Assembly (NCBI RefSeq): GCF_000172155.1
Contig: NZ_ABIZ01000001.1
Location: 2,699,105 to 2,763,104 of the forward strand
Direction: 5' to 3'
DNA: 64,000 bases
Source of the DNA: Verrucomicrobium spinosum DSM 4136 = JCM 18804
GTDB taxonomy: Bacteria; Verrucomicrobiota; Verrucomicrobiia; Verrucomicrobiales; Verrucomicrobiaceae
Shown here: one piece after another, positions 7,547 through 24,724 of the stretch
Position numbering within the stretch: the stretch's first letter is position 1
Layout of the letters: every line of letters starts with the position of its first letter
Program-made: the position numbers and the translations under genes
The notes under the pieces: model-generated
What the model saw: the letters and a program-made list of their open reading frames with translations, nothing else
Told to the model about the DNA's origin: nothing
The model's database searches: none

Positions 7547-8362
7547 ATGGGCAATTTTTTTCCTCGCTGGACCAACTGGGTGCCGTTGAAGATTGCGGTG
7601 TGCCTTGGATTTGTACTGGTGGGCGTGGCCGTTGGTGCCTCCTACTATTTCACCCCAAAGTACACCCGGGTGGGCTATGAGCCGACGCAACCGGTGGCAT
7701 TCTCGCACAAACAACACGTAGGGGAGCTCGGCCTCGACTGTCGCTACTGTCACTCCTATGTGGAGCAGTCCAGCCACTCAAACGTGCCGACCAACCAGAC
7801 CTGCTACAACTGTCACGGGCCGGACAAGGGTCAGGTCAAGAAGGACAGCCCGAAGCTCGCCCAGGTTCGTGAAGCCAACATCACCGGCAAGCCCATCGAG
7901 TGGGTGAAGGTGCACAAGGCCCCGGACTACGTTTACTTCAACCACAGCGTGCACGTGAACCGCGGCGTTTCCTGCGTCAGCTGCCACGGCAAGATCAACG
8001 AGATGGAAGTGGTGAAACACGCTGAGCCTCAGAGCATGGGCTGGTGCCTTGACTGTCACCGCCAGCCGGAGAAGAATCTCCGCCCGCTCGACCAGATTAC
8101 CAACCTGAATTACAAGCCTGAGCAGCTCAATCGCGACGCCTTCTATCAGGGTCTGACTGACAAAGGTGCCAAGATCGAAGACCTCGCCAAGACGGTCCTC
8201 AATGGCAAATCGGTGGAGAAGCTTCCCGCCGACCTGAACGCTCTTGTGGCCCTCGCCACGGATACCTACGGCCCAACGGTCACGCAGCAGGAGGTCGGCA
8301 GCCAGCTCAAACACAACTGGCGCATCCATGCTCCCGAGGATTGCACCACCTGTCACCGCTAA
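7547..8362 (+). CDS. actA: Alternative complex III subunit A, pentaheme cytochrome c
   Basis: ActA is the multiheme c-type subunit of alternative complex III, the quinol:electron acceptor oxidoreductase that replaces bc1 in many non-proteobacteria. The 271-residue protein has one N-terminal membrane anchor (residues ~14-34) and five CxxCH motifs: CRYCH 65-69, CYNCH 86-90, CVSCH 143-147, CLDCH 167-171 and CTTCH at the C terminus. Further histidines (SHKQH, NHSVH) can serve as second axial ligands. It is the first gene of a 17-kb co-oriented respiratory cluster and overlies no other gene. A palindromic site precedes it. Confidence 0.95.
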   Translation: MGNFFPRWTNWVPLKIAVCLGFVLVGVAVGASYYFTPKYTRVGYEPTQPVAFSHKQHVGELGLDCRYCHSYVEQSSHSNVPTNQTCYNCHGPDKGQVKKDSPKLAQVREANITGKPIEWVKVHKAPDYVYFNHSVHVNRGVSCVSCHGKINEMEVVKHAEPQSMGWCLDCHRQPEKNLRPLDQITNLNYKPEQLNRDAFYQGLTDKGAKIEDLAKTVLNGKSVEKLPADLNALVALATDTYGPTVTQQEVGSQLKHNWRIHAPEDCTTCHR

Positions 8363-8383: not shown

Positions 8384-11300
8384 ATGAAACGCATCTGGCA
8401 ACATCCCGAAGTCAAGTCTGAGCGTCGCTACTGGCGCAGTCTTGGTGAGTACTCCAGCACGCCGGAGTTCACCGAGAAAGTGGGCCGTGAGTTCGACCCC
8501 TCCATCAGTCTGGAATCGGCTGAAGAGCGCGAAAACTCGCGCCGTGACTTCATGAAGATCATGGGCGGCATCGCCGCCGTGGCCGGTCTGGCAAGCTGCC
8601 GCCGTCCCCAGCAGAAGATCCTTCCTTTCACCAAGCACGTTGAATGGATCGTGCCGGGCAAGTCGCTTCTTTACGCGACCGTAATGCCCCGTCCGTATGG
8701 GGCCACCCCAGTGGTGGCAGTGACCCACGAAGGTCGCCCGACTCACGTTCAAGGCAACCCGCTGCATCCTACCAACGGTGGTCTGGATATCTTTGCCCAG
8801 GCTTCCGTGCTGGACCTCTACAGTGAGTCCCGCGTCAAGAAAGTCGTCGGCAAAGGTGCTCCGACCTCCTGGAGCAAGTTCGAGCGCGAACTTCGCGGAT
8901 GGTGGGAACACAGCTGGTCCAAGAATGGCGGCGAAGGTCTCGCCCTCCTCCTGAGCCCCAGCACCTCGCCCACCCGTGCTGGTCTGTTGGCGGACTTTGC
9001 CAAGACCTATCCCAAAGCAGCCGTTTACAGCTATGCTCCCGTCAGCCGGACCAATGAGCTTAATGCGGTGAAGGCGCTCTTTGGTGAAGGCGTTTCCCTC
9101 CTCCCAAAATACGACAAGGCAAAGGTCGTTTTCTCCCTGGATGCCGACTTCCTCGGCGTGGACTCCTCCACAGAGTTCCACACCAAATCCTTCATGAAAA
9201 ACCGTGGTCCTGAAAAGGGCACGGATGGCATGAGCCGGCTCTACGTCTTGGAAAACCGCTACACCCTCACGGGTGGGATTTCTGACCACCGTAAGCCCAT
9301 TGCTGCCAGCCTCATTCCCGCCGCGGCCGCTGTGCTCGCGCAGGAAGTGGCCAAGCTCACGAAAGACAGCGCTCTGGCCAAGGCCGCTGCGCCGCTTGCA
9401 CAGGGACTCAGCGACAACCACAAGCAGTGGATCGCGGTTGCTGCTGAAGATCTATTCGCAAACCTTGGCAAATCCATCGTGGTTGCTGGTTCAGGGCAAA
9501 GCGAAGCGGTGCACGCTTTGGTGCTCGCGATCAACGACTCCCTCAAGGCGTTTGGTTCGGTGATCGACACCGTGACCGTCCCGGTGAGCAAGTCCGGCAG
9601 CATCGAGCAGCTCACTGCCGACCTCACAGCCAAGAAGGTGAAGCAGCTCTTCATCCTTGCTGATACCGACCCGGTGTATGATGCCGTCGGTTTCGCTGAT
9701 GCCGCCAAGGCCAGCGAGGCGAAAATCGTGACGTTGGCTCTCCGGGCCAACCACACGGCGAAGCACTCCCACTGGATCCTCCCTGCCGCCCACTACCTGG
9801 AAGCATGGGATGACGTCCGCTCCGCTGAAGGCGTGTACTCCGTGGTGCAGCCGATGATCCAGCCCCTCTTTGATGGTGCTTCCGTCAACGACATGCTGCT
9901 GGCTCTTCTTGGCCGCAAACACCCCGGCCCGGCTCGTGCCAAAGCTGTGGAGCCCTCCAAGGACCCCGCTGCTCCGGTGCCCGCCCCGGTGTTCGAAGTG
10001 GACCCCGCCTATGTGGCCGTGAAGGAGAGCTTCACGAAGACTGTAGGGGCATGGGACGAAGAGAAGTGGAATCACGTGTTGCGTGATGGATTCCTCCCCA
10101 AGACCTATTATCCAAAGGCCTCTGTTTCCCTGAACCGCGGTGCAGTCGCCGGGCTGGTGGCAAAGGCTCCCAAACTCTCCGCCCCGACGGAGCTGGCCCT
10201 GGAAATCGTGCTGGCACCTGATGCCAGCGTCTATGATGGTCGCTACGTTGACAACGCCTGGTTGCAGGAAGCTCCGGATCCCATCACGAAATTGACTTGG
10301 GACAATGCCGCCTGGCTGAGCCCGCGGACATTCAAGCGCCTTGGTCTCAAAACCGAAGGTGACTTCATCGAAGTCAAAGTAGGGGACAAGACTCTCAAGA
10401 TTGCAGCGATCGCCTGCCCGGGACATGCTCATGATTCCGTGACCATCCCTCTTGGCTACGGCCAGAAGGTGACCACTTATGTGGGCAAGGGTACGGGCTT
10501 CAATGCCTACCCGCTGCGCTCCGCCATCACTGACTACATCATCAGTGGCGCGACGGTGGCCAAGGTGGAGGGGACGTACGAGCTCGCCATCACTCAGGAG
10601 AACTACACGATGGAAGCCCGCTCGCAGGTGCGCGAAGCGACGCTCGAGACGTTCAAAAACGACGAGCATTTCGCCTCCCATCAGGGCATGGACTCCCACA
10701 TCCCGCCGGAGATGAGCATCTACAAGGGGCGCATCGGGGTAAAGTCTGAGGAGAACCCGAATGGCTTCGACTACGAGAACATCCCGCAGTGGGGGATGGT
10801 GATCGACCTTTCCAAGTGCCTTGGCTGCTCCGCGTGCATCGTGGCCTGCCAGAGCGAGAACAACATTCCCGTGGTGGGCAAGGACCAGGTTCGCAAGGGC
10901 CGTGTCATGCAGTGGATCCGTATGGACCGCTACTTCGCCACGCCGGACAATGTGGACACCGATCCGACTCTCGAAGATCTGGACAACCCGGAAATGGTGA
11001 GCCAGCCAGTGGCCTGTCAGCAGTGTGAATCCGCCCCGTGTGAAACTGTCTGCCCCGTGAACGCCACCGTTCACACCGAAGACGGCCTCAACGCCATGGC
11101 GTACAACCGCTGCATCGGTACCCGCTACTGCGCCAACAACTGTCCCTATACCGCCCGTCGCTTCAATTTCTTCGACTACAACAAGCGCAACCCGCTGATC
11201 GAAACCAAGGTGTTGGGTCTCAAGACGAACAACATCTACGCTGGCCCGCTTGGTGAGAAGAAGCCCCAGGAGATGGAGCAGCTTCAGAAGAACCCGAATG

Positions 11301-11677
11301 TCACTGTTCGCATGCGTGGGGTGATCGAGAAATGCACCTACTGCGTGCAGCGTCTCGAGGAAGCCAAGATCAATCAGCGTCGGATCGCCCGTGATGACGC
11401 CAGCAAGCTGATGGTGAAGGGGGACGGCCTCAAGGTAGCCTGCCAGGCCTCCTGTTCCGCTGACGCCATTGTCTTTGGCAACCTCGCCGACAAAGACGGA
11501 GCGGTGGCGAAGATGAAAGAACATCCGCGCAACTACCAGGTGCTCAAGTACCTTGGCACCCGCCCGCGTACGAGCTACCTGGCCCGCATCCGGAACGTCA
11601 ATCCCGCGATGGCGAGCCTCGAAACCGACCGCACGGTGCCGACGGGTACCTCCAGCAGCATGGAACGCTCATTCTAA
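8384..11677 (+). CDS. actB: Alternative complex III subunit B, molybdopterin-like/iron-sulfur protein
   Basis: ActB is the large periplasmic iron-sulfur subunit of alternative complex III. It has 1097 residues, the expected fusion size. An N-terminal region before residue 50 is followed by a Tat-type motif NSRRDFMKIMGG (about 52-62) and a cysteine in LASC (72) that could be lipidated. Residues ~80-760 resemble a molybdopterin oxidoreductase fold, which in this family carries no molybdenum. The C-terminal part is a four-cluster ferredoxin: CLGCSACIVAC, CQQCESAPCETVC, CIGTRYCANNC, and CTYC with CQASC. It lies 21 bp after actA and 6 bp before actC, clearly co-transcribed. Confidence 0.95.
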   Translation: MKRIWQHPEVKSERRYWRSLGEYSSTPEFTEKVGREFDPSISLESAEERENSRRDFMKIMGGIAAVAGLASCRRPQQKILPFTKHVEWIVPGKSLLYATVMPRPYGATPVVAVTHEGRPTHVQGNPLHPTNGGLDIFAQASVLDLYSESRVKKVVGKGAPTSWSKFERELRGWWEHSWSKNGGEGLALLLSPSTSPTRAGLLADFAKTYPKAAVYSYAPVSRTNELNAVKALFGEGVSLLPKYDKAKVVFSLDADFLGVDSSTEFHTKSFMKNRGPEKGTDGMSRLYVLENRYTLTGGISDHRKPIAASLIPAAAAVLAQEVAKLTKDSALAKAAAPLAQGLSDNHKQWIAVAAEDLFANLGKSIVVAGSGQSEAVHALVLAINDSLKAFGSVIDTVTVPVSKSGSIEQLTADLTAKKVKQLFILADTDPVYDAVGFADAAKASEAKIVTLALRANHTAKHSHWILPAAHYLEAWDDVRSAEGVYSVVQPMIQPLFDGASVNDMLLALLGRKHPGPARAKAVEPSKDPAAPVPAPVFEVDPAYVAVKESFTKTVGAWDEEKWNHVLRDGFLPKTYYPKASVSLNRGAVAGLVAKAPKLSAPTELALEIVLAPDASVYDGRYVDNAWLQEAPDPITKLTWDNAAWLSPRTFKRLGLKTEGDFIEVKVGDKTLKIAAIACPGHAHDSVTIPLGYGQKVTTYVGKGTGFNAYPLRSAITDYIISGATVAKVEGTYELAITQENYTMEARSQVREATLETFKNDEHFASHQGMDSHIPPEMSIYKGRIGVKSEENPNGFDYENIPQWGMVIDLSKCLGCSACIVACQSENNIPVVGKDQVRKGRVMQWIRMDRYFATPDNVDTDPTLEDLDNPEMVSQPVACQQCESAPCETVCPVNATVHTEDGLNAMAYNRCIGTRYCANNCPYTARRFNFFDYNKRNPLIETKVLGLKTNNIYAGPLGEKKPQEMEQLQKNPNVTVRMRGVIEKCTYCVQRLEEAKINQRRIARDDASKLMVKGDGLKVACQASCSADAIVFGNLADKDGAVAKMKEHPRNYQVLKYLGTRPRTSYLARIRNVNPAMASLETDRTVPTGTSSSMERSF

Positions 11678-11683
11678 TTTGTC

Positions 11684-13144
11684 ATGGCCCAGCAAACGGC
11701 GACCGCCTCCCACTCATCCTCAAGCCAGCCGCGCATCCTTGATCGCGAACCGCTGGTCCTGAACAACCGCAGCTACAGCTGGATCACGAACCGCATTTGC
11801 GGCATCGTGGAAAACCGGCAGCCCAAGCTGTGGTGGATTCTCTTCATCCCGTCGGTGATCCTGACGGGCATCATGGCCTTCTGCTTTGTGTATCTCATCT
11901 CCACCGGGGTGGGTGTCTGGGGGCAGAAACAGCCGGTTGCCTGGGCGTGGGACATCACGAACTTCGTGTTCTGGATCGGTATCGGTCACGCTGGCACCCT
12001 CATTTCCGCCATTCTTTTCCTCACCCGTCAGAAATGGCGTACGGCGGTGAACCGGGCCTCGGAGGCCATGACCCTCTTCGCAGTGATGTGCGCCGGTCTC
12101 TTCCCGGCCTTCCACGTGGGGCGCGTCTGGATGGTGTGGTTCCTCGCACCCGTGCCGAATGCGAACGCGATCTGGCAGAACTTCAAGTCACCGCTCCTTT
12201 GGGACGTTTTCGCGGTTTCCACCTATTTCACGGTGTCCGTGATGTTCTGGTTCATCGGTCTTGTACCTGACCTCGCTACCCTTCGTGATCGTTGTAAGCC
12301 TGGTATCCGACGCACGCTTTACGGGATCTTCGCCCTCGGCTGGCGTGGCGGCAACCGCCAGTGGAACCACTATGAAATGGCCTACCTCCTTCTGGCGGCC
12401 CTTTCGACCCCGCTGGTGCTCTCCGTGCACTCCGTGGTGTCCTTCGACTTCGCCACCTCCGTGGTTCCTGGCTGGCACACCACTATCTTCCCGCCCTACT
12501 TCGTGGCTGGCGCTATCTTCGGTGGCTTCGCGATGGTGCTTACACTGATGATCCCCGCCCGGCGGATCTACGGTCTCTACGACCTGATCACGGAGAAGCA
12601 CATCGACAACATGGCCAAGATCATCCTGTTGACCGGTACCATCGTCGGGTACGGCTACAGCATGGAGTTCTTCATGGCCTACTACTCGGGCAACCAGTAC
12701 GAACTCCAGACCTTCCAGCTCCGCGGCCTGTACGGCCCGTCCGTCTGGTACTACTACTGCATGTTCGGCTTCAACGTCTTCGCGCCGCAGCTGTTCTGGT
12801 TCCGGTGGTGCCGTAAGAATCTCTTCGTCGTCCTCTTTGTCTGCATGTGCGTGAACGCGGGCATGTGGTATGAGCGCTACGTCATCATTGTGACGACACT
12901 GGAGCGCCACTTCATGCCAGGCTCCTGGCGCGTGTTCGACGCCACCTGGGTGGACAACTGGACCTTCATTGGCACGTTCGGCTTCTTCATGATGAACTTC
13001 CTGCTCTTCCTGCGCTTCCTGCCGGTGATTGCCGTGGCTGAAGTGAAGGCAGTGCTCCCTGAGGCCAACCCGCATCATGACGACCATCACGAGAAGGGTG
13101 TTCACGAACTGGAGATTGAGTACGGAAAGGTCAAAGTCTCCTAA
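11684..13144 (+). CDS. actC: Alternative complex III subunit C, NrfD/PsrC-like quinol-binding membrane protein
   Basis: ActC is the NrfD-family membrane subunit that contacts ActB and carries a quinol site. The 486-residue protein has about ten transmembrane helices after a ~50-residue cytoplasmic N terminus. Recognisable family stretches are [18 protein letters not shown] near residue 90-107 and [20 protein letters not shown] near 220-240. The C terminus is soluble and His-rich ([12 protein letters not shown]). The start is 6 bp after the actB stop, so translation is probably coupled. Confidence 0.94.
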
Positions 13145-13167
13145 CCCCTCGCTGGAGGATTTTTCAC

Positions 13168-13725
13168 ATGGCACGAACCACTCTCAAACGAGTCCACGGC
13201 TACCTGGCTGAATTTGACAGCGCCAAGGACGTTTATCACGCATCCGAGCAGATCCGAGACGCTGGGTTTCAGCGCTGGGACGTCCACTCGCCTTTCCCGA
13301 TCCACGGATTGAACGAGGCGATGGGCCTCAAGCGGTCTATCCTTCCCTGGTTTGTCTTTTTCGGCGGTGCAGCGGGCATCACGACGGCATTCTGCCTGGC
13401 GTATATCACCCAGGTTGGCATCTATCCCACGGTAGTGCAGTCCAAGCCGGCGAACATCTTCACAACGGCGGCCTTTTTCCCGATCATGTTCGAGCTGACG
13501 ATTCTGTTCTCCGCCTTCACGACGGTCTTTGGATGTTTTGCTCTCATGGGCCTTCCGCGTCTGAACCATCCGCTCTTCGCGGCCAAGACCTTCAAGAAGT
13601 TCTCCGACGACGGGTTCTTCATTTGCATCGAGGCCCGGGATCCGAAGTTCCACCAGGCTGAAACCAGGGCTCTTTTGGAAGGGCTCGGTGGGAAGAACAT
13701 CGAACTCGTTGAGGACGAACTGTAA
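13168..13725 (+). CDS. actD: Alternative complex III subunit D (DUF3341 membrane protein)
   Basis: ActD is a small two-helix membrane subunit of alternative complex III, of DUF3341 type. In 185 residues it has an N-terminal ferredoxin-like soluble part ending in the diagnostic segment WDVHSPFPIHGLNEAMGLKR (residues ~40-60). Two transmembrane helices follow (about 61-84 and 100-126), then a soluble C-terminal domain (FSDDGFFICIEARDPKF). A good ribosome-binding site GGAGG lies 11-12 bp before the ATG. The gene lies 23 bp after actC. Confidence 0.93.
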   Translation: MARTTLKRVHGYLAEFDSAKDVYHASEQIRDAGFQRWDVHSPFPIHGLNEAMGLKRSILPWFVFFGGAAGITTAFCLAYITQVGIYPTVVQSKPANIFTTAAFFPIMFELTILFSAFTTVFGCFALMGLPRLNHPLFAAKTFKKFSDDGFFICIEARDPKFHQAETRALLEGLGGKNIELVEDEL

Positions 13726-13740
13726 GCATCACGACTGTCC

Positions 13741-14391
13741 ATGAAATACTTCTTTCTCAGTTACTTTCTCGTCGTGGTGACGGTGGTGAGCTTCGCGGGT
13801 TTCCGCGGCCACAAGTTCGAAAAGCCCCCGATCCAGGTCTTCCCGGACATGGATGATCAGGCTAAAGTCAAGGCCCAGGTGAAGAGTGAGTTCTTTGCGG
13901 ACGGTGTGGGCATGCGGCACCCAGTGACGGGCACCCTGCCAATGGGGTTTGAACAGCCCAGCAAGCCGGCGAGCGAAGGCTACACGCCTCAGACTTTGGA
14001 ATTTACCCACGGCAGTACGTATTACTACACCGGCAAGGTGGGGGACTACTATGGGGATGGTTTCCCCGAGGAGTTGAAGGTGACTACCGAGTTCCTCAAG
14101 CGGGGGCAGGAGCGCTACAACATCCAGTGCGCCATCTGCCACGGCACCTCCGGAAATGGCAAGGGTGTGTTCACCAAGTACTCGACCGTCGTTCCCGCGG
14201 ATCTGACTGGCCCGGGTTTTGATGATGCGGCGAATCCCGCCTATCGTCCGGACGGCAAGATCTACGATACCATCACGAACGGCTGGAACCAGATGGGTGG
14301 CTACGGTCCCAACATCAGCGTGCAGGACCGCTGGGCCATCGTTGCCTACGTCCGCGCCCTCCAACATGCGGCAAAAAATCCGGTCAAGTAA
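13741..14391 (+). CDS. actE: Alternative complex III subunit E, monoheme cytochrome c
   Basis: ActE is the monoheme class I cytochrome c of the complex, a likely exit point for electrons toward the oxidase. Its 216 residues comprise an N-terminal anchor or lipoprotein-like signal (residues 3-20), a proline-rich linker, and a cytochrome c domain with CAICH at 130-134 followed by GTSGNGKGVF. A downstream NQMGGYGPNISVQDRW region probably supplies the methionine ligand. It lies 15 bp after actD and 12 bp before actF. Confidence 0.93.
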   Translation: MKYFFLSYFLVVVTVVSFAGFRGHKFEKPPIQVFPDMDDQAKVKAQVKSEFFADGVGMRHPVTGTLPMGFEQPSKPASEGYTPQTLEFTHGSTYYYTGKVGDYYGDGFPEELKVTTEFLKRGQERYNIQCAICHGTSGNGKGVFTKYSTVVPADLTGPGFDDAANPAYRPDGKIYDTITNGWNQMGGYGPNISVQDRWAIVAYVRALQHAAKNPVK

Positions 14392-14403
14392 TTCATTTCA
14401 AGC

Positions 14404-15756
14404 ATGAGCGCCCATCCCATCACTCTTGACGATCTGCCGAAAGACGGCGAAAAGCTCGACCTCACGAAGGTTAGCAAGCTGAATGGCTTGTTCCTTGTGG
14501 TTGGCGGTCTTGGTCTGGTGGCCTCCCTGGCCTACCTCTTCGGCTTCCTCGGCGAGCAAAAACAGGCGGAATTCGCCTACAGCTGGCTCTTCGCCTTCTT
14601 CTTCTTCTTCACCATCACCTGCGGCGGCATTTTCTGGACCATGCTACAGCATGCCTCCAACTCCGGGTGGAGTGTCTCTGTCCGTCGTCTGTTTGAGAAC
14701 CTCGGTTCCAACGTGATCTGGATGGCAGTCTTTGCCCTTCCGTTCGTGTTTGTGCCCTCCATCAAGAATGCCCTTTGGGAGTGGATTCCGATTCATCACC
14801 ATGCAGCAGAGGTGGCAGCCAAGCATAACGCTGAACACGCTGGCGACAATTGGGGCACCTATGAGGGACTTCACCACATGGTGGAGGAGGGGGATCACTC
14901 CGTGCACATCCTCACGTCCAAGTACGGCTACTTGAATGAAACGTTCTGGGTGATTCGGGCCATCGGCTACTTTCTCATTCTTGGTTCCCTTTCCTATTTC
15001 CTGCGCAAGTGGTCCATCCAGCAGGACAAGGATGGCAGCTTCAAGCACACGTTCCGCTCCCGTGCGTTCTGCTGTCTTCTCCTCCTTCCTTATGCGCTGG
15101 CGGTGACCTTTGCGGCCGTTGACTGGATCATGGCCATGGACTACACATGGTTCTCCACTCTCTGGGGCGTGTACATTTTCGCTGGCGGTGCCTGGGGTGC
15201 GATGGCAGTCTCGATCCTGGCCCTCACCTACGTGCGCAGCCATGGCTATCTTCACAAGGTGACTTCAGGTGAGCACTACCACTTGATGGGCAAGCTCCTC
15301 TTCGCCTTCACGGTGTTCTGGGCGTACATCGCCTTCAGCCAGTTCTTCCTCATCTGGTATGCGAACATCACGGAAGAGACCCGCTTCTACCTGCTGCGCA
15401 ACACGGGTGGCTGGTGGTACTTGAGCCACACGTTGGTCTGGCTGCACTTCGCGGCAACATTCGTTCTCCTTCTTTCCGCTGGACGCAAAAAACGCACTGG
15501 CGTGATGAATGCCCTCTGCTTCTGGGTGTTGCTGATGCACGTGGTGGATTGGTACTGGCTGGTGATCCCCGAGCGTGGCCCATCCCTGACAAAGGGGGGA
15601 GCTCTCTGGATTGACGGAGCCTGGATGGGGGACATCATTGCGTTCCTCGCCATTGGTGGTCTGAGCGGTTGGGCCTACCTTCGCCGCTTGTCCAAAGCCA
15701 GCCTTTATCCCTGCCGTGACCCCCGTTTGCTCGAGTCTGTCACCGCTACCAACTAA
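14404..15756 (+). CDS. actF: Alternative complex III subunit F, second NrfD-like membrane protein
   Basis: ActF is the second NrfD/PsrC-related membrane subunit, about ten helices in 450 residues, thought in the family to pair with ActC. Family-like segments include FFFTITCGGIFWTMLQHASNSGW (residues ~62-84), a large His-rich periplasmic loop (HHHAAEVAAKHNAEHAGDNW) and LMHVVDWYWLVIPERG near 378-393. It closes the six-gene act set. The next gene begins 9 bp later, so the downstream Pro/Ala-rich gene appears to belong to the same operon. Confidence 0.93.
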   Translation: MSAHPITLDDLPKDGEKLDLTKVSKLNGLFLVVGGLGLVASLAYLFGFLGEQKQAEFAYSWLFAFFFFFTITCGGIFWTMLQHASNSGWSVSVRRLFENLGSNVIWMAVFALPFVFVPSIKNALWEWIPIHHHAAEVAAKHNAEHAGDNWGTYEGLHHMVEEGDHSVHILTSKYGYLNETFWVIRAIGYFLILGSLSYFLRKWSIQQDKDGSFKHTFRSRAFCCLLLLPYALAVTFAAVDWIMAMDYTWFSTLWGVYIFAGGAWGAMAVSILALTYVRSHGYLHKVTSGEHYHLMGKLLFAFTVFWAYIAFSQFFLIWYANITEETRFYLLRNTGGWWYLSHTLVWLHFAATFVLLLSAGRKKRTGVMNALCFWVLLMHVVDWYWLVIPERGPSLTKGGALWIDGAWMGDIIAFLAIGGLSGWAYLRRLSKASLYPCRDPRLLESVTATN

Positions 15757-15765
15757 GAGTTTCCC

Positions 15766-16692
15766 ATGTCGTCTCCCACGCCACCCACACCCTCCCGAGC
15801 GCTCTCTGTTTTTCTGGGCACGCTGGCGGCATTTGCCAGCTTCGCCGTCGTGGCTGCCTTGCTGCAAGCCATCGCTGGCGGTACGCCCGAGTACCGGGAC
15901 CATGATGCTCGCGTCAAAGTCAAAGAAGGCGTCGCTGCTGAACAGGACGCCCTCGTTGAAAAGTACGGTCTGAAGCATGATGCAACGCCTGTGCTTACGA
16001 AGGCCGCAGAACTTGTGAAGGGTCGCAAACCCTCCACCTCCACTCAGGTGGTGCCCGGTTCTCCGACAGCGTTGAAGGCAGCTGCTGTACCAGCAGCGGC
16101 TCCTGCACCCGCTCCGGAGGCTGCGAAGAAGGCGGAGGAGAAGCCGACTGCAGCCCCAGCGCCAGTTCCTACGCCGGAAGCACCGAAGGTCGAGACTCCC
16201 GCACCTGCTCCTGCTCCAATGCCTGCACCGGCACCTGAACCTCCCAAGACGGTGGTGCCAGCCCCGACACCCGCTCCTGCTACGCCGCCGCCAGCGCCAG
16301 CACCTGAAGGTCCGAAGCCTGAAGCGCCTGCACCGATGCCCGCCCCTGCTCCTGAGGCACCGAAGCCAACTCCGGCTCCAGCACCTGAAGGTCCGAAGCC
16401 CGAAGCGCCTGTACCGATGCCCGCCCCTGCTCCTGAAGCACCGAAGCCAACTCCGGCTCCAGCACCAGAAGCTCCGGAGCCTGAAGCGCCTGCGCCGATG
16501 CCCGCCCCCGCCCCCGCTCCTGAGGCAGCCAAGCCAGCTCCCCAAGTTCCGGTCCCTGCACCCACTCCCACTCCCGAGGCCCCCAAGACGGAAGCTCCAA
16601 CTCCAACTCCTGCCCCGGCACCTAACACTCCCACACCTGAGGCTCCGGCTCCGCCTGCCGCTCCGGAAACTCCCGCTCCCCAACCTCAGTAA
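15766..16692 (+). CDS. Membrane-anchored Pro/Ala-rich protein between ACIII and oxidase genes
   Basis: The 308-residue product has one hydrophobic helix (about residues 12-34) and a ~70-residue segment with conserved-looking character (ARVKVKEGVAAEQDALVEKYG through VLTKAAELVKG). Its final ~210 residues are almost only Pro, Ala, Glu, Lys and Thr. The tail has an internal 27-residue repeat of the pattern EGPKPEAPAPMPAPAPEAPK. Such tails form extended, stiff rods (as in TonB linkers), so it could span the periplasm. The short head resembles the ALVEKYG...AAELVKG pattern of small proteins near cytochrome oxidase genes in PVC bacteria, from memory only. It is 9 bp after actF and 31 bp before the ccoN-like gene. 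Function unknown. Confidence 0.8.
   Translation: MSSPTPPTPSRALSVFLGTLAAFASFAVVAALLQAIAGGTPEYRDHDARVKVKEGVAAEQDALVEKYGLKHDATPVLTKAAELVKGRKPSTSTQVVPGSPTALKAAAVPAAAPAPAPEAAKKAEEKPTAAPAPVPTPEAPKVETPAPAPAPMPAPAPEPPKTVVPAPTPAPATPPPAPAPEGPKPEAPAPMPAPAPEAPKPTPAPAPEGPKPEAPVPMPAPAPEAPKPTPAPAPEAPEPEAPAPMPAPAPAPEAAKPAPQVPVPAPTPTPEAPKTEAPTPTPAPAPNTPTPEAPAPPAAPETPAPQPQ
16309..16530 (+). repeat. 81-bp tandem repeat inside the Pro/Ala-rich gene
   Basis: Units begin at 16309, 16390 and 16471 with a period of exactly 81 bp (27 codons), about 2.7 copies. The differences are mostly single bases. Because the period is a multiple of three, copy-number change would lengthen or shorten the rod-like tail without breaking the frame. 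Confidence 0.85.
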
Positions 16693-16723
16693 AGCTTCGT
16701 TTTTTCCTTTTACCTGACCTGCC

Positions 16724-18235
16724 ATGGAGACAACTGACACGACCGTCTCAAACAGCGACAGCCTACGCCGCGCGGCCATTGACCGCTCGGTGAAGGGGCC
16801 GGTGCTTTTCCTGTTTGCCAATGCCGCCCTTTGGCTGCTTGCATCGACCATCATGGGCTTGATCGCCTCTGTGAAACTTGTTAAGCCGGGTTTCCTGGAC
16901 TACGACTGGCTCTGGTTCCTCAACTATGGGCGCCTGCAGCCTGCCCACCTTACGGCCTTGGTCTATGGCTGGGCCATTCAGTCCGGCCTGGGTGCCAGCA
17001 TCTGGATCCTTGCCCGTCGCTCCGGGCTTGCTCTTGAGCGAGGCGCTGGCTCCATGGTGACTGCCGGAGTCTTCTGGAACATCGGGGTGACCCTCGGTGT
17101 CCTCGGGATCCTCTTTGGCGGCAGTACTTCGCTGACGTGGTTGGAGTTTCCGGCGTTCGTCTGGCCGCTTTTCCTGGTTGCCTTCCTCATCATCGCGGGT
17201 CGCATGGTGTTGCATTACAATGCCGTGCAGCGTGAGAACTGGTTCTTCCTTTCCTCCTGGTACATCCTTGCGGGTCTCTTCTGCTTCCCCTGGATTTTTG
17301 CGACGGTGAACTTGCTCCTCAACCACTACGCTCCGGCTTCTCCTCTTGGCGCGATTGGGGCTGGTATCAACGCCTGGTATGTGAGCAACATCATCTGGTT
17401 GTTCTTTACTCCGATCGGCCTGGGTGCGTGTTACTACTTCATTCCGAAGATCACTGGCAAGCCGGTGTTCAGTGGCCAGCTCGCGCAGCTCGGGTTCTGG
17501 GGGCTGATCGTCCTTGGTGGCTGGACTGGCTACCAGAAGTACATGGGGGGACCGCTTCCCGCCTGGATGTCCGCAGTGGGCGGCACCGCGGCACTTCTTC
17601 TGCTTGTTCCTGCTGGCATTGTGGCGCTCAACAACCACCTCACCACTGAGGGCAAGCGCGGTCTTATCGAGACTAGCCCCACGCTCCGCTTCGTCTTCGT
17701 CGGTTCCTTCTGTTACGTGATCATGAGCGGTGTCAGTGCGTTGCTCGGCACGTTCTGGACGGGGTCAAACACCCAGTTCACTTACGCTGAGTACGGGTAC
17801 CAGCTTCTTGCGGTGTACGGCTTCTTTAGCATGACGATGTTCGGTGCGATTTACTACATTGTTCCCAGACTGGCCAACTGTGAGTGGCTGAGCGCCCGCC
17901 TGATCCGCCAGCATTTCTGGTTCTCCGTTTATGGTATCAGCGCCATGGTAGTCTGTATGCTTGTTGGTGGTTTGTTCCAGGGTGCAAGCGTGAACAGCCC
18001 CGACAACTGGAATCAACCCATGGTCGGCAGCGTCATCAACGCCCGTGGTTATCTTGTCGGCCGCTCCCTCGCTTGGGTTTTCATCTTGTGGTCGAACTTC
18101 TGGTTCTTTGTCCACCTTGTGTTCATGGTGCTGGGTCTTGGACGTCGCAGCACGACGCCGACCCTGCTTGTGCACGACCGTCACCATGACTACGTCCCCG
18201 GAACTTTAACATCGGTTACCACCAAAGAAGCATGA
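16724..18235 (+). CDS. CcoN-like membrane protein lacking oxidase metal ligands
   Basis: The fold is that of the cbb3 oxidase catalytic subunit: 503 residues, about twelve helices, with family stretches RLQPAHLTALVYGW and FGAIYYIVPRL. Compared with CcoN (Pseudomonas stutzeri numbering recalled from the literature), only the helix-II histidine is kept, as H75. The CuB ligand positions are S221 (in NAWYVSN), Q271 and K272 (in GWTGYQKY). The heme b3 ligand position is Y359 and the second heme b ligand position is L361 (in YGYQLLAVYG). These alignments are gap-free around anchors W267/L278-P279-W281 and P381-R382. The protein should therefore not reduce oxygen. It overlaps the CcoO-like gene by 4 bp (ATGA). 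A scaffold or electron-relay role is inference. Confidence 0.85.
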   Translation: METTDTTVSNSDSLRRAAIDRSVKGPVLFLFANAALWLLASTIMGLIASVKLVKPGFLDYDWLWFLNYGRLQPAHLTALVYGWAIQSGLGASIWILARRSGLALERGAGSMVTAGVFWNIGVTLGVLGILFGGSTSLTWLEFPAFVWPLFLVAFLIIAGRMVLHYNAVQRENWFFLSSWYILAGLFCFPWIFATVNLLLNHYAPASPLGAIGAGINAWYVSNIIWLFFTPIGLGACYYFIPKITGKPVFSGQLAQLGFWGLIVLGGWTGYQKYMGGPLPAWMSAVGGTAALLLLVPAGIVALNNHLTTEGKRGLIETSPTLRFVFVGSFCYVIMSGVSALLGTFWTGSNTQFTYAEYGYQLLAVYGFFSMTMFGAIYYIVPRLANCEWLSARLIRQHFWFSVYGISAMVVCMLVGGLFQGASVNSPDNWNQPMVGSVINARGYLVGRSLAWVFILWSNFWFFVHLVFMVLGLGRRSTTPTLLVHDRHHDYVPGTLTSVTTKEA

Positions 18236-18909
18236 CCAGCTTGCGCAAACTCGTGATTGGATTGGGTGTCAGTTTCGGAGCTCCGTGGCTCCTGCTGGTC
18301 GTCATTCCTGCCCTGAAAGCCCAGAAGACCGTTCCCATTCCCTACGACAAGGATCGTGATGGATTGACTGGTTTCTACCCGGCTGATGGTGTGTACCGCC
18401 AAGGTCAGCTGGTGTATCTCAAAGAGGGATGCGTGCAGTGCCACACCCAGGTCATCCGGACCACCTTCAACAACATCTCTGATGGCTGGAAGAAGGGTTG
18501 GGGGAGTGATCAAAGCCCTGAACCCAAAAATGTGGTGCGCGCCAGCACCATGCGTGACTACCTCGGTGAACCAGTGGCACCTCTTGGGGTGCAGCGCAAT
18601 GGTCCGGATCTCGCCAACTTCGGCTATCGTGTGGTTGGTGAAACTGGCCGTGAAGCCCTGCACGTGAAGCTGTATGCGCCGCGCTCCCAGAATGAGTGGA
18701 GCATTATGCCGTCCTACCGGCACCTGTACAAGGTGCAGAAGATTCAAGGTGTTGGTTCTCCTGACGCCCTGAAGCTTCCCAAGGATCTAGCTCCCAAGAA
18801 AGGCTACGAAGTGGTGCCGACCGCCGAAGCCGTGGAACTGGTGAACTACCTTTGCTCCCTGAAAAAAGACGCCCCCGAGCCCGGCAAGGTGGTGGCTGAC
18901 AGCAAGTAA
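18232..18909 (+). CDS. CcoO-like membrane-anchored monoheme cytochrome c
   Basis: This 225-residue homologue of the cbb3 oxidase CcoO subunit has an N-terminal membrane anchor (residues ~6-28). The typical CcoO segment EGCVQCHTQVIR carries the heme-c motif at C67, C70 and H71. RNGPDLANFGYR and SIMPSYRHLY follow, with M159 as the probable axial ligand. Unlike its neighbour the CcoN-like protein, it keeps every residue needed to bind heme. The ATG overlaps the ccoN-like stop, so the two are translationally coupled and probably form a pair. Confidence 0.88.
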   Translation: MTSLRKLVIGLGVSFGAPWLLLVVIPALKAQKTVPIPYDKDRDGLTGFYPADGVYRQGQLVYLKEGCVQCHTQVIRTTFNNISDGWKKGWGSDQSPEPKNVVRASTMRDYLGEPVAPLGVQRNGPDLANFGYRVVGETGREALHVKLYAPRSQNEWSIMPSYRHLYKVQKIQGVGSPDALKLPKDLAPKKGYEVVPTAEAVELVNYLCSLKKDAPEPGKVVADSK

Positions 18910-18918
18910 CGACGAGCC

Positions 18919-19635
18919 ATGAACGAGAATCAGCCCCAAAACTTTGACAACACTGACCTCGACCGCCTTCACGCTGCTGTGAAGCGCGAGAAGCCTGACG
19001 CTCAGCCAGGTCGCGAACCAGCGCCCCTCTGGGTGTTCGTGGCCAGCATGGCCGCCATGGTCCTCGCCGGTGGCTACGCGGGAGCTTATGTCGGCGGTTT
19101 TGATTTTGAACAGAACTCGCCCTATCTCGGGAAAGTGAAGGACACCCGTCCCATCGACCACACGGTTGGTGCGGACCTCGATCCTTTTGCTCTGGCCATG
19201 AAAAAAGGTGCCGATGCCTACAACAGCTGCCAGGGCTGTCATGGTGCCTCGGGTGGTGGTCAGCCCGGTCTGATCCCACCGCTTGCTGGCTCAGAGTGGG
19301 TGTTGGGTGGGACTGAGCGTATCGCGCGTATCGCCCTCCACGGCCTGAGTGGAAGTGTCACTGTAAAAGGTGCCAACTACAACGGCGTGATGCCCCCGCA
19401 GTCTGGCCTTTCGGACAAGGAGCTTTCCTACGTGATCACCTACATCCGCAACTCTTGGGGCAATAAAGGCTCTTTGGTGACACCGGACATGGTGAAAAAA
19501 GTCCGGAACGAAACGAAGGCCCATATTGGCCCTTGGACAGCAGCGACACTCTTGGAGTTTGCCGAGAAGGACATTCCGGGCGAAGCTCCCGCCGCAGGTG
19601 CCGCAGCCGCAACGCCCGCGCCCGCAGCCAAGTAG
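18919..19635 (+). CDS. Membrane-anchored monoheme cytochrome c (CcoP-position)
   Basis: The product has 238 residues: a cytoplasmic N terminus of about 36 residues, one helix (~37-59), and a class I cytochrome c domain with CQGCH at 104-108. YNGVMPPQSGLSDKELSYVITYIR follows, a classic methionine-ligand and C-terminal helix pair. An Ala/Pro-rich tail ends the protein. CcoP of true cbb3 oxidases usually carries two hemes; this has one. It lies 9 bp after the ccoO-like gene and 88 bp before oxidase subunit I, so it could be the electron donor to the CuA oxidase. Confidence 0.85.
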   Translation: MNENQPQNFDNTDLDRLHAAVKREKPDAQPGREPAPLWVFVASMAAMVLAGGYAGAYVGGFDFEQNSPYLGKVKDTRPIDHTVGADLDPFALAMKKGADAYNSCQGCHGASGGGQPGLIPPLAGSEWVLGGTERIARIALHGLSGSVTVKGANYNGVMPPQSGLSDKELSYVITYIRNSWGNKGSLVTPDMVKKVRNETKAHIGPWTAATLLEFAEKDIPGEAPAAGAAAATPAPAAK

Positions 19636-19723: not shown

Positions 19724-21577
19724 ATGAGCGCTGTTACCGCCCACCACGATCACTCGCATGCGGATCATGCTCACGAGCACGATCACCCGAAGCAGAGCTT
19801 CCTCTATAAGTACATCTTCAGCACGGACCACAAGGTCATCGGGATCCAATATGGTCTCACTGCCATGTGCTTCCTGCTGTGGGGCTTCTTCCTGATGATG
19901 GTGATGCGCTGGAGCATTGCTTTCCCAGGCACGGAAATGCCCATCTTTGGTCAGTTGATGGGCGAGCGCTGGGCTCCTGGCGGGGTCGTCAGTCCCGAGC
20001 TCTATAACATGTTTGGAGCCATGCACGGTACCATCATGGTGTTCTTGGGCGTGGTGCCCCTCGGTTTCGCTGCTTTCGGCAACTACATCATGCCCCTGCA
20101 GATTGGAGCAGTGGATATGGCGTTCCCCAAGCTCAATGCGTGGAGCTACTGGCTCTATTTCATCGGCGGCGTGCTCATGATGCTCAGCTTCTTCCTGCCG
20201 ACGGGTGCAGCCCAGGTGGGGTGGACGAACTACTCTCCGCTGGCCACCACCGCGCAGATTGACGTGAAGAACATCTTCTTCACCGGCCAGACGCAGTGGT
20301 TGTTCTCCATGGTGTTCCTGATTTCCTCCTCGCTGCTGGGTTCAGTGAACTTCATCACCACGATCCTCAACCTGCGCTGCAAAGGGATGACCTGGATGCG
20401 CCTGCCCTTCTTCTGCTGGGCTATGCTGGTCGTCGGTTTCCTTCTGCTTCTTGCATTCCCGCCTCTTGAAGTCGCAGCCATCATGCAGCTTGCAGACCGA
20501 CTCTTCGGTTCCAGCTTCTTCCTCCCTACCGGCCTGGTTGAGGCTAACAAGCATCTTGACATCGCTGGCGGTGGCAGCCCGCTGCTCTACCAGCACTTGT
20601 TCTGGTTCTTGGGTCACCCGGAAGTGTACGTGCTCATTCTCCCGGCTGTCGCCATTGTTTCGGACGTGATTCCGGCCAACATCCGCCGTCCGCTCTGGGG
20701 CTACAAGTCGATGATCTACGGCGTACTCACCCTCGGCTTCCTGAGCTTCATCGTATGGGCTCACCACATGTACCTCACGGGCATGGGACCGGTGGTCTCC
20801 ACCTTCTTCCAGATCACCACGGTGTTGATCTCGGTGCCTTCCGTGATCCTGCTGACGTGCTTGATGATCACACTCTGGGGCGGTTCCATCCGTTTCAATA
20901 CGGCGATGCTTTTCGCCTGCGCCTTCCTTCCGATGTTCGGGATTGGCGGTCTTACCGGTCTGCCACTGGCCTTCAGCACGATCGACCTTTACTTGCACGA
21001 TACCTACTACGTCATCGGCCACTTCCACTACGTGGTGGCGCCTGGTACGATCTTCGGGCTTTTCGCGGGCATCTATCACTGGTACCCCAAGATGACGGGT
21101 CGATTCATGAACGAGACGCTCGGCCGCCTGCACTTCTGGCCCTCGCTGCTGTGCATGAACCTGCTGTTCTCCCCGATGTTGATCCAGGGCATGGCTGGCT
21201 TCCACCGCCGCTGGCATGATGGTGGTGTCGCCTTCGCTGGCACTTCCAGTGGCGATTGGATGGGAATCCCGCTGCTTAAGCTCAACGAGGTGATGTCCTT
21301 TGCAGCATGGGGTCTGGCCATTGCCCAGGTGCCCTTCATCCTAAACCTGTTCTTCAGCATCAAGGGTGGCAAAAAGGTGAAGTCGGACAACCCCTGGCAG
21401 GCTACAACGCTCGAGTGGGCGACTCCGACACCTCCCGGGCATGGCAACTTCCTTCAAGAGCCCGTGGTTTACCGCGACGCTTACGATTACAGCGTTCCCG
21501 GTGCCGAAACAGACTACTCCCCGCAGTGGCTGCCTGAAGGTGTGAAGCCTGAGGAAAAGCTCACCCACATGCATTGA
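19724..21577 (+). CDS. ctaD: Cytochrome c oxidase subunit I, aa3 type
   Basis: This is the heme-copper oxidase catalytic subunit, 617 residues, 12+ helices and a His-rich N terminus. All ligands are present: H101 (MHGT) and H435 for low-spin heme, H433 for the active-site heme, and H298, H347 and H348 for CuB, with the cross-link tyrosine Y302 in GHPEVY. D-channel residues are visible (N120, D131, E300). At the position of the K-channel lysine (bovine K319) a gap-free alignment from the HH pair gives L376 in VPSVILL, so the usual K pathway looks altered. It is followed by subunit III. Confidence 0.96.
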
Positions 21578-21641: not shown

Positions 21642-23060
21642 ATGGAAATTCCATACACCGTCAAACCCCGGCCGGATACCGGACTGTTCAATGCGAAGAT
21701 CGGCATCTGGCTCTTCCTCGCCTCTGAGGTGATGCTCTTCGGCGGTCTGTTCTCTGCTTACATCTTCCTGCGTATCGCTCCTGAAGGCCCCTGGCCGGTT
21801 CAGGTGCTCACCGTGAAGTGGGGGTTCATCAACACCCTCGTGCTCATCTTCTCCAGTGTCACTGTGCTACAGGCATGGGTGTCTCTGAAGTTGCGCAAGT
21901 TCCGGATGTTCCAACTTTGGATGACCCTGACCATTCTCTGCGCTGGCGGATTCATGGCCATCAAGTCCGTGGAATACGCTGACAAGTTCCATCACTATGG
22001 CGTTTTGCTTAAGGACGGCAGTTCGGTGGAAGGTCACTTCCCTGCGGATCATCCTTATCACATCAAGTTCGATGAGGTGAAAACGGTGACCTTGGCCTCC
22101 AAACACACCGACAAGGGGCTCTTTGGTCTCAGCTTGTTCCGTCATGGTTCCGATGGTGGGTTCCTGAAATACATCGTTGATGGCAAACCCGAGTTCAAAG
22201 ACTCAGCCGGCAATGTGGTCATGCTGGATGCGGTGACAGTGAAAAAGCTGGTTCATGAAGCCCAGGAGAAGAAGATCGACTTCATCACACTGACGGCGAC
22301 CAATCCGCTTAAGTTTGACATCCCGCCGTCGAAGCTCTTCGACAATGCCTATGATGCGCACAAGGCCCATTTCCGTGATGGCACAGTGATCGAAGGCAAG
22401 CTTGCTTACGATTCGATGCATCTCGAAGCGGATCGTATCGACCTGCGCCGCCTCTTCGCCGCTGACGAGAAGAGCGACCAGAAGGCACTGGAAAGCGTGC
22501 AGAATGCTGACGTGTGGCGCATCCTCGGTGGTGACTGGAAGAAGAAGTTCAACGAGCATCATGATGCCGAGCTGAAGAAGTTCGAGGAGAAGCACAAGGG
22601 CAAACAGCAGCCCATGGACAACAGCGACTACGTTCGCCACGTCTATGCGATGAAGATCAGCCTGGACGACTCTCATGGTCACGCCAGCACGGTTAAGTCG
22701 GGAGGCGAGGGCCTTGCAGCCGAAGCTGCTGCTGATTCCCACGGAACGCATGCTGTGGAATCACATGCTGGCAGCCATGGCCATCCTCTTGTCGTGATCG
22801 AGAAGAAGGACATCTCCTTCTGGTCCAACTTCACTCCCAAGTACGGCAACTACTTCGCGATCTACTTCACGCTGACGGGCCTGCACGGTCTTCACGTGAT
22901 CGGGGGGGCCATCGTTCTGGGGCACATGCTGCTTTTCGGCAAAAGGATCTACGACAAGGACCCTGATCACCTGGCAAACCGGGTGGAAGTGGGCGGCCTG
23001 TTCTGGCACTTCGTGGATCTGGTCTGGATCTTCCTGTTCCCGTTGCTGTATCTCCTTTAA
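21642..23060 (+). CDS. ctaE: Cytochrome c oxidase subunit III with large soluble insertion
   Basis: The ends match a five-helix subunit III: TM1-3 at residues ~19-43, 58-82 and 91-110, then TM4-5 at ~402-431 and 449-472, including [12 protein letters not shown] and [16 protein letters not shown]. Between TM3 and TM4, where the family normally has a short loop, lie about 280 hydrophilic residues (~115-395). They are rich in Asp, Lys and His and end in a His-rich stretch ([16 protein letters not shown]). The frame is open throughout, so this is a real insertion and not a frameshift. The total of 472 residues is about twice the family norm. It lies 64 bp after ctaD. Confidence 0.92.
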
Positions 23061-23114
23061 CCTGACGCTCCGGGGCTGCGGTGCCCGGATTTGATTTCCA
23101 GCTTTATTACCATC

Positions 23115-23450
23115 ATGGCTCACGACCATCACGACCACGACAGTCCGGAATACTACAAGAAGCAGGCCAAGATCATCTGGGCCGTTGGTGGCGTTCTTGT
23201 CCTTGGCACCCTCATCACCGTTGGAGTGATGAATTGGGACATGGGCTCCCGCGCCGCCAACATTGCCTTCGGCATGTTCATCGCCCTGGTGAAAGCCAGC
23301 TTTGTGGCGCTTATCTTCATGCACTTGAAGAGTGAACGTGGCCTTATCTACAAGGTCCTCTTCTTCACGGTGCTCTTTGCGATTGGCCTCTTTGTGCTGA
23401 CCTACCTCGGCTACGCTGATCCCCTGCACTCCAAGTTTATCAGTTACTGA
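23115..23450 (+). CDS. Cytochrome c oxidase subunit IV-like protein
   Basis: This 111-residue protein has a His-rich start (MAHDHHDHDSPEYYKKQ) and three transmembrane helices, matching the caa3/prokaryotic COX4 family, including the segment KASFVALIFMHLKSERG. The ATG at 23115 is chosen because an upstream alternative at 23091 adds eight unlikely residues. It probably stabilises the oxidase; family members carry no cofactor. It lies 54 bp after subunit III and 9 bp before a tiny membrane protein gene. Confidence 0.88.
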   Translation: MAHDHHDHDSPEYYKKQAKIIWAVGGVLVLGTLITVGVMNWDMGSRAANIAFGMFIALVKASFVALIFMHLKSERGLIYKVLFFTVLFAIGLFVLTYLGYADPLHSKFISY

Positions 23451-23884: not shown

Positions 23885-24724
23885 ATGACTCCTGATTCGT
23901 TGATCACCCTCGCCACCCTGAACAAGCTTTTGGGGATTCCTGCCCTTGCTTCTGAACATGGCGAGATGGTGGACCACATGCTTGAGCTGGTGCACTGGTT
24001 CATGTTGCTCCTTTTCGTTGGCTGGTCAGCTTTCCTGGTGGTGGTATTCACCAAGTTCCGCCGGAGCAAGAATCCCAAGGCCGACTATCACGGTGTCCGC
24101 GGGCACGCCTCCACCCACATCGAAATCGGCGTGGTCATCGTGGAAGCCATCTTGCTTCTCGGTTTTGCCTTCCCGCTATGGGGGCAGCAATCTGAAAAGT
24201 ACCCCTCCGGTAGCAACGTACTGAAGGTGCGTGCGGTGGGCGAGAAGTTCCTGTGGAGCTTCCAGTACGGTGGTACGGACAACACTCTAGGGCGTACCGC
24301 GTTGAAGTTGATCGACATCGGTTCCAACCCTCCCAACACGATCGGTCGTGACATGAAGGACCCGAATGGCAAGGATGACTTTGTGAAGGTCGGGGTGATG
24401 ACTCTGCCGGTGAACCGACCCGTGATCGTTGACGTGACCAGCAAGGACGTGATTCACAACCTTGCACTCGTGCCGATGCGTATGGCACAGGATGCCACCC
24501 CCGGAGTTCGCAGCCATGCTTGGTTCAAGCCCACCAAGACCGGATCGTGGGACATCATCTGCGGTCAGCTTTGTGGTCCTGGCCACTCCGGCATGAAGGC
24601 GACACTCAACGTGATTCCTGAGAAGGAGTTCGACGAGTTCGTGAAGGAGGCCAGCGACACTGCCAAGGCGGCCGTGGAAGCGACGCCGGCTCCTGCTGTA
24701 GGCGCTGCCCCAGCCGCCCATTGA
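23885..24724 (+). CDS. ctaC: Cytochrome c oxidase subunit II with CuA site
   Basis: Subunit II accepts electrons from cytochrome c at a dinuclear copper centre. The protein has 279 residues, two transmembrane helices (about 32-56 and 79-100) and a cupredoxin domain with the full CuA set: H191 (VIHNLALVP), C226, C230, H234 and M237 in CGQLCGPGHSGM. The usual Glu between the two cysteines is Gln (Q228). No fused C-terminal cytochrome c is present, so the oxidase is aa3 rather than caa3. It relies on separate cytochromes, such as those encoded just upstream. Subunit II comes last in the operon instead of first, followed by a strong terminator. Confidence 0.95.
   Translation: MTPDSLITLATLNKLLGIPALASEHGEMVDHMLELVHWFMLLLFVGWSAFLVVVFTKFRRSKNPKADYHGVRGHASTHIEIGVVIVEAILLLGFAFPLWGQQSEKYPSGSNVLKVRAVGEKFLWSFQYGGTDNTLGRTALKLIDIGSNPPNTIGRDMKDPNGKDDFVKVGVMTLPVNRPVIVDVTSKDVIHNLALVPMRMAQDATPGVRSHAWFKPTKTGSWDIICGQLCGPGHSGMKATLNVIPEKEFDEFVKEASDTAKAAVEATPAPAVGAAPAAH

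Follow-up and report, generated by a model that had tools for sequence, protein, structure and literature searches.

A CcoN-like protein stripped of nearly all its metal ligands beside alternative complex III of Verrucomicrobium spinosum: a probable assembly and wiring part, not an enzyme

In Verrucomicrobium spinosum DSM 4136, three genes resembling those of a cbb3-type oxidase lie between the genes for alternative complex III (ACIII) and those for an aa3-type oxidase, and an earlier note, made from the sequence alone, had proposed that the CcoN-like protein among their products has lost its metal ligands. What does an oxidase subunit I without ligands do at such a place? The window (the whole stretch of 64,000 nucleotides analysed, part of one 8.22 Mb contig) contains a co-directional cluster at 7547–28391, in which ActABCDEF, a Pro/Ala-rich single-TM protein and the trio of CcoN-like protein, CcoO-like protein and cytochrome c are followed by CoxA, CoxC, CoxD, CoxB, CtaA, CtaB, Sco and a DUF420 protein, in that order. 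The features up to CoxB are:

7547–8362, + strand: ActA, pentaheme cytochrome c of ACIII, with five CxxCH
8384–11677, + strand: ActB of ACIII, matching solved ACIII ActB (E 1e-131 to 9e-211)
11684–13144, + strand: ActC, named from position and sequence only
13168–13725, + strand: ActD, named from order and sequence only
13741–14391, + strand: ActE, monoheme cytochrome c
14404–15756, + strand: ActF, matching solved ActF chains
15766–16692, + strand: single-TM protein with a long Pro/Ala repeat extension, in the gap between ActF and CcoN
16724–18235, + strand: CcoN-like protein, ligandless C-type heme-copper oxidase subunit I homologue, 503 aa
18232–18909, + strand: CcoO-like monoheme cytochrome c, 225 aa, with CVQCH
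18919–19635, + strand: third cytochrome c, 238 aa, with CQGCH, one heme and a Cytochrome_CBB3 domain
19724–21577, + strand: CoxA/CtaD, subunit I of the aa3-type oxidase
21642–23060, + strand: CoxC, subunit III with a long internal insertion
23091–23450, + strand: CoxD, subunit IV
23885–24724, + strand: CoxB, CuA subunit II

The complex is assigned as ACIII from ActB and ActF, which are homologous to solved ACIII subunits, and from the pentaheme ActA. All three ORFs of the trio are intact and run in one direction, with CcoN overlapping CcoO by 4 nt; the earlier note had read an intact CcoN frame that overlaps CcoO. CoxC (472 aa) has a charged insertion of roughly 250 residues between helices, and its COX3 match is split in two stretches.

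In Pfam and NCBIfam searches, the CcoN-like protein matched COX1 (E 2e-38) and ccoN (121 bits, the equivalog cut-off being 583 bits), and its partners matched FixO and Cytochrome_CBB3. Ligand columns were located with phmmer against solved CcoN proteins (3mk7, 9g6b and 9g83) and with MAFFT among homologues. Both agree that H60, H207, Y251, H257, H258, H345 and H347 of P. stutzeri correspond to H75, S221, G265, Q271, K272, Y359 and L361 of the window protein. The three CuB histidines are gone (S221, Q271 and K272), the cross-linked Tyr is also lost (G265), and Y359 and L361 occupy the positions of the heme b3 proximal His and of one low-spin heme b ligand. Alignment with characterised CcoN sequences, the check proposed in the earlier note, thus places no His at the CuB or heme b3 positions. 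H75 is the sole ligand residue left, a claim of the earlier note borne out by phmmer, MAFFT, the predicted helices and independent genomes. Histidines occur in the protein at 75, 164, 201, 305, 397, 464, 484, 487 and 488, and the AF2 helices in which the ligands to CuB and heme b3 and the second heme b ligand should lie (209–244, 251–273 and 354–384) contain none, so that no alignment shift inside them can supply any of these ligands. The model (pLDDT 91) has the C-type subunit I fold, its closest match being cbb3 subunit I (3mk7, TM 0.82 by query and 0.89 by target).

The ligandless state is common to homologues of 98% and 73% identity, a protein 98% identical to that of the window being encoded by Verrucomicrobium sp. 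BvORR106, and nearly all Verrucomicrobiaceae/Akkermansiaceae-type loci seen are ligandless too; the loss is not chance. A normal oxidase hidden by misalignment or sequencing error has practically no probability, being refuted by the agreement of two aligners, by three helices devoid of His and by independent genomes. Since the window CcoN lacks CuB, heme b3 and at least one low-spin heme b ligand, it cannot reduce oxygen; as the earlier note had proposed, the trio is, on the evidence of these residues, nearly certain to be incapable of O2 reduction by the heme-copper mechanism.

A CcoN match was obtained from 91 of 289 Verrucomicrobiota-phylum genomes, some being ordinary cbb3 oxidases. At 65 loci of the class Verrucomicrobiae, CcoN lies between ACIII and CcoO-cytochrome c: 21 of these have all seven residues, 2 retain just the two low-spin heme b histidines, and at the other 42 the site has been lost in a variety of ways. 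A second set, the best 80 named loci from a separate scan (all Verrucomicrobiota; genomes may overlap the first set), comprised 77 ligandless, 1 heme-b-only (L184) and 2 complete loci (L175 and L181). CuB or heme b3 ligands are incomplete while both low-spin heme b histidines are kept in L088, L097 and L184. A search for the same gene order, also suggested in the earlier note, found ActABCDEF-N-O-cytochrome c throughout the class, in nearly all loci where the contig allows, and the window has the ActF-N-O-cytochrome c order of this family. The window CcoN belongs to a family of ACIII-linked C-type oxidases with both complete and ligandless members, and its loss of ligands is not a one-off but one of several across the class. 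To our knowledge of the open-access literature, ligandless ACIII-linked CcoN has not been reported earlier, although a report in a subscription journal is possible. The complete members show that the family descends from a C-type oxidase already linked to ACIII. Homologues of the same order with a complete ligand set had been named in the earlier note as evidence against its reading; L175 and L181 literally are such homologues, aa3 genes included, but they represent the ancestral state, not a return of the window protein's ligands.

In most homologous loci the gap between ActF and CcoN holds a small TM protein; outside the window the gap proteins are short TM proteins with a motif like YxWVDxxxGxVRIPIxxAM, and in some Akkermansiaceae-type loci the gap protein bears a cytochrome c domain. 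A copper chaperone in this gap, lost along with CuB, was considered and rejected, since the small TM gap gene occurs in complete and ligandless loci alike. In G078 (L072), only a short weak CcoN match was seen near a cytochrome c gene, possibly a truncated remnant.

The aa3 genes lie directly downstream in 77 of the best 80 named loci, and the gene-order survey supports the claim that the trio is fixed between ACIII and aa3, the aa3 part applying to the order Verrucomicrobiales. The bridge to the CuA oxidase suggested in the earlier note is not general, since many ligandless members, including most of family f5, adjoin ACIII without neighbouring cox genes. A strict tie of ligand loss to adjacent aa3 was likewise rejected: complete L095, L175 and L181 have cox genes alongside, and most ligandless f5 members do not. 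Every ligandless genome checked possesses another heme-copper oxidase; the window genome encodes two more subunits I, that of the adjacent aa3 oxidase and that of a fused CcoNO elsewhere (G000:C1:1043661), which scores above the ccoN cut-off and has a complete ligand set. The ACIII-linked CcoN is the only heme-copper oxidase in just two genomes, the small G001 and G146, and both have the complete set.

In a tree of ActB+ActC, which is independent of the ligand columns, the ligand state needs 9 changes, at least 6 of them forced by well supported branches, and a single clade for all ligandless members is rejected (AU test, p = 5e-6). The CcoN tree needs 4 changes for three states, 3 being forced for the ligandless label, and places 18 ligandless members in one clade; on ActB+ActC one clade of these 18 is rejected (p 6e-8), as is one of 15 of them (p 0.003), and the grouping may be a long-branch effect or reflect exchange of part of the operon. 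L043 (AAGVNQQ) sits among complete members in both trees. Since the two trees disagree (9 vs 4 changes), we count at least 3 to 6 separate losses of the active site.

Between the window and L074, a 98% relative, dN/dS (NG86, saturated for distant pairs) is 0.027 for CcoN, 0.058 for CcoO and 0.015 for CoxA, so that CcoN lies near CoxA, and other ligandless pairs give 0.06–0.29 for CcoN. The CcoN gene is under purifying selection despite its lost active site, in support of the claim that its frame is kept under selection. Its constraint in ligandless lineages is partly relaxed, not free: the CcoN/ActBC distance is 1.07x in complete pairs and 2.76x in ligandless pairs, about 2.6 times larger. This faster evolution, together with ligand positions that vary between lineages as if drifting freely, would suit a decaying, functionless relic retained only through a tight operon. 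We consider this unlikely, because the window and almost every homologue have an open frame (a single internal TAA occurs in one genome), dN/dS is low, and CcoN has survived undamaged in whole families and through several separate ligand losses. A pseudogene was rejected on the low dN/dS and long conservation. The relic would also have to account for N119, P143, W190 and P277 (window numbering), which separate the ACIII-linked family from canonical CcoN, are present in the window and are invariant or nearly so in complete and ligandless members, while the ligand columns of ligandless lineages drift to unrelated residues. Such a pattern is as expected for contacts, not for catalysis.

CxxCH is kept in 145 of 145 loci in CcoO and in 140 of 141 in the third cytochrome (surveyed and best-80 named loci). 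The window CcoO has both this motif (CVQCH) and the axial Met, as expected of a cbb3 CcoO. The description of the cytochromes as intact thus stands for the heme c motifs and for the window, but not for the axial Met of many ligandless relatives. This Met is present in 26 of 26 loci with both heme b histidines and many ligandless ones have Cys, Ser, His, Arg or Lys in its place; Cys was found in 9 of 42 ligandless loci of the first set (L080–L087 and L090) and in 32 of 77 among the best 80 named loci (L114–L193), and is expected to lower the redox potential strongly. A relay through CcoO therefore cannot be universal, and in some lineages, judged from these replacements, CcoO may have no electron-carrying role.

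That CcoN instead holds one low-spin heme b, or some other cofactor, and acts as a redox relay in the membrane has some points in its favour. H75 is present in 16 of 16 Verrucomicrobiaceae/Akkermansiaceae loci of the first set, L088, L097 and L184 keep both low-spin histidines after loss of CuB or heme b3, and the Tyr of a CxYCH motif in CcoO occurs in 26 of 26 loci with both heme b histidines vs 14 of 119 without (surveyed and best-80 named loci). However, Leu stands at the partner position in the window, on a helix without His, and 11 of the best 80 named loci have Phe instead of H75, with Ala, Gln or Ser at other loci, so that we regard the relay as improbable. Covariation of Tyr and Met in the neighbouring CcoO rather supports a real loss of heme b. 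Tyr was rejected as a perfect heme b marker, with one exception in the first set and Tyr in 13 of the 77 ligandless loci of the second. A new non-redox job unrelated to holding cytochromes, such as proton or ion conduction or quinone binding, could be suggested by the regular replacements in Verrucomicrobiales, where among the best 80 named loci H257 is Q in 65 and H258 is K or R in 60. These replacements do not recur in ligandless lineages of separate origin, whose synteny with CcoO is nevertheless constant, which makes such a job quite improbable.

We therefore favour, at a rough probability of 0.6, the reading that CcoN is a scaffold holding CcoO and the third cytochrome on ACIII and aiding electron transfer to aa3 or another acceptor; a presumed oxidase of Verrucomicrobiae is probably an assembly and wiring part, not an enzyme. 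The trio descends from a working C-type (cbb3-like) oxidase that was a fixed partner of ACIII in the class. In the window lineage CcoN, now without CuB, heme b3 and one or more ligands of low-spin heme b, would have been kept as a heme-poor, multi-helix membrane scaffold that docks both cytochromes, CcoO and the third one, on ACIII. Menaquinol electrons would exit ACIII via ActA/ActE and reach CuA of the neighbouring aa3 with the help of CcoO and the third cytochrome, or be taken by a soluble carrier where no oxidase adjoins. We infer the physical association with ACIII and aa3, the absence of heme b in vivo and this electron path beside what was observed directly, namely ligand loss, fold, gene order, repeated loss, purifying selection and heme c motif retention. 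In Flavobacterium johnsoniae, ACIII can pass electrons straight from ActA to aa3 (PMC8552683). No extra relay is thus needed in principle, and the module more likely tunes coupling, assembly or acceptor choice than forms the sole path.

The members of family f4 (2.2–2.5 Mb genomes) have the same cluster, followed by aa3, and their seven ligand positions are S E S S H F V in genus g17 and A D A A H Q T in G266. No protein above the ccoN cut-off was found in the five f4/Methylacidiphilum-like genomes. The L057 locus carries the nitrous oxide reductase genes nosZ and nosD (9400–17300) in the interval from ActF to its ligandless CcoN. Methylacidiphilum caldifontis IT6 is described with this arrangement, its aa3-type and cbb3-type oxidase genes being said to adjoin ACIII and nos genes (PMC11102522). 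For verrucomicrobial methanotrophs, a review counts cbb3 as one of three oxidases in all isolates but one and puts it directly beside ACIII (PMC8498564; also PMC6688271). These features of the f4 genomes suggest the genus Methylacidiphilum, and the cbb3 oxidase published beside ACIII in that genus appears to be one of the ligandless forms; if the genus assignment is correct, it is not an oxidase. At slightly less than even odds, we extend this tentatively: a heme-copper subunit I would repeatedly have become an obligate non-catalytic module, ACIII-aa3 of Verrucomicrobiae would be built around a dead cbb3 core, and the methanotroph cbb3 would be the same scaffold. If so, homology annotation overcounts high-affinity oxidases in Verrucomicrobiota, and the cbb3 listed with the terminal oxidases of Methylacidiphilum would have no catalytic activity. 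Complete, heme-b-only and empty members form a natural series on which two questions can be tested directly: what an oxidase core contributes to a complex III partner beyond catalysis, and which cytochromes carry electrons out of ACIII.

The window trio shares with the cbb3-type (C-family) oxidase CcoNOP its fold, the gene order N-O-cytochrome c and the heme c of CcoO, but lacks the ligands of CuB and heme b3, the other heme b ligand and the cross-link Tyr; it is far under the ccoN, ccoO and ccoP equivalog cut-offs, its third subunit has one heme, and it is tied to ACIII. The core proteins of mitochondrial bc1 are enzyme-derived structural subunits, likewise catalytic proteins turned into subunits of a complex, but of another enzyme class, and in Verrucomicrobiae the loss recurs within one family. 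In the supercomplex of F. johnsoniae (Sun 2018 as described in PMC8361435 and PMC8552683), ACIII likewise works with aa3; these descriptions report no CcoNO pair and place the contact at oxidase subunit III and the electron path in ActA/ActE. The C-type oxidase next to ACIII in Opitutaceae and in verrucomicrobial methanotrophs (Refojo 2010 as cited in PMC8498564) is, by order and sequence, the same syntenic family as far as that citation describes it, and is ligand-complete in many class members; it is presented there as an oxidase, whereas the window and the Methylacidiphilum-like members have no active site.
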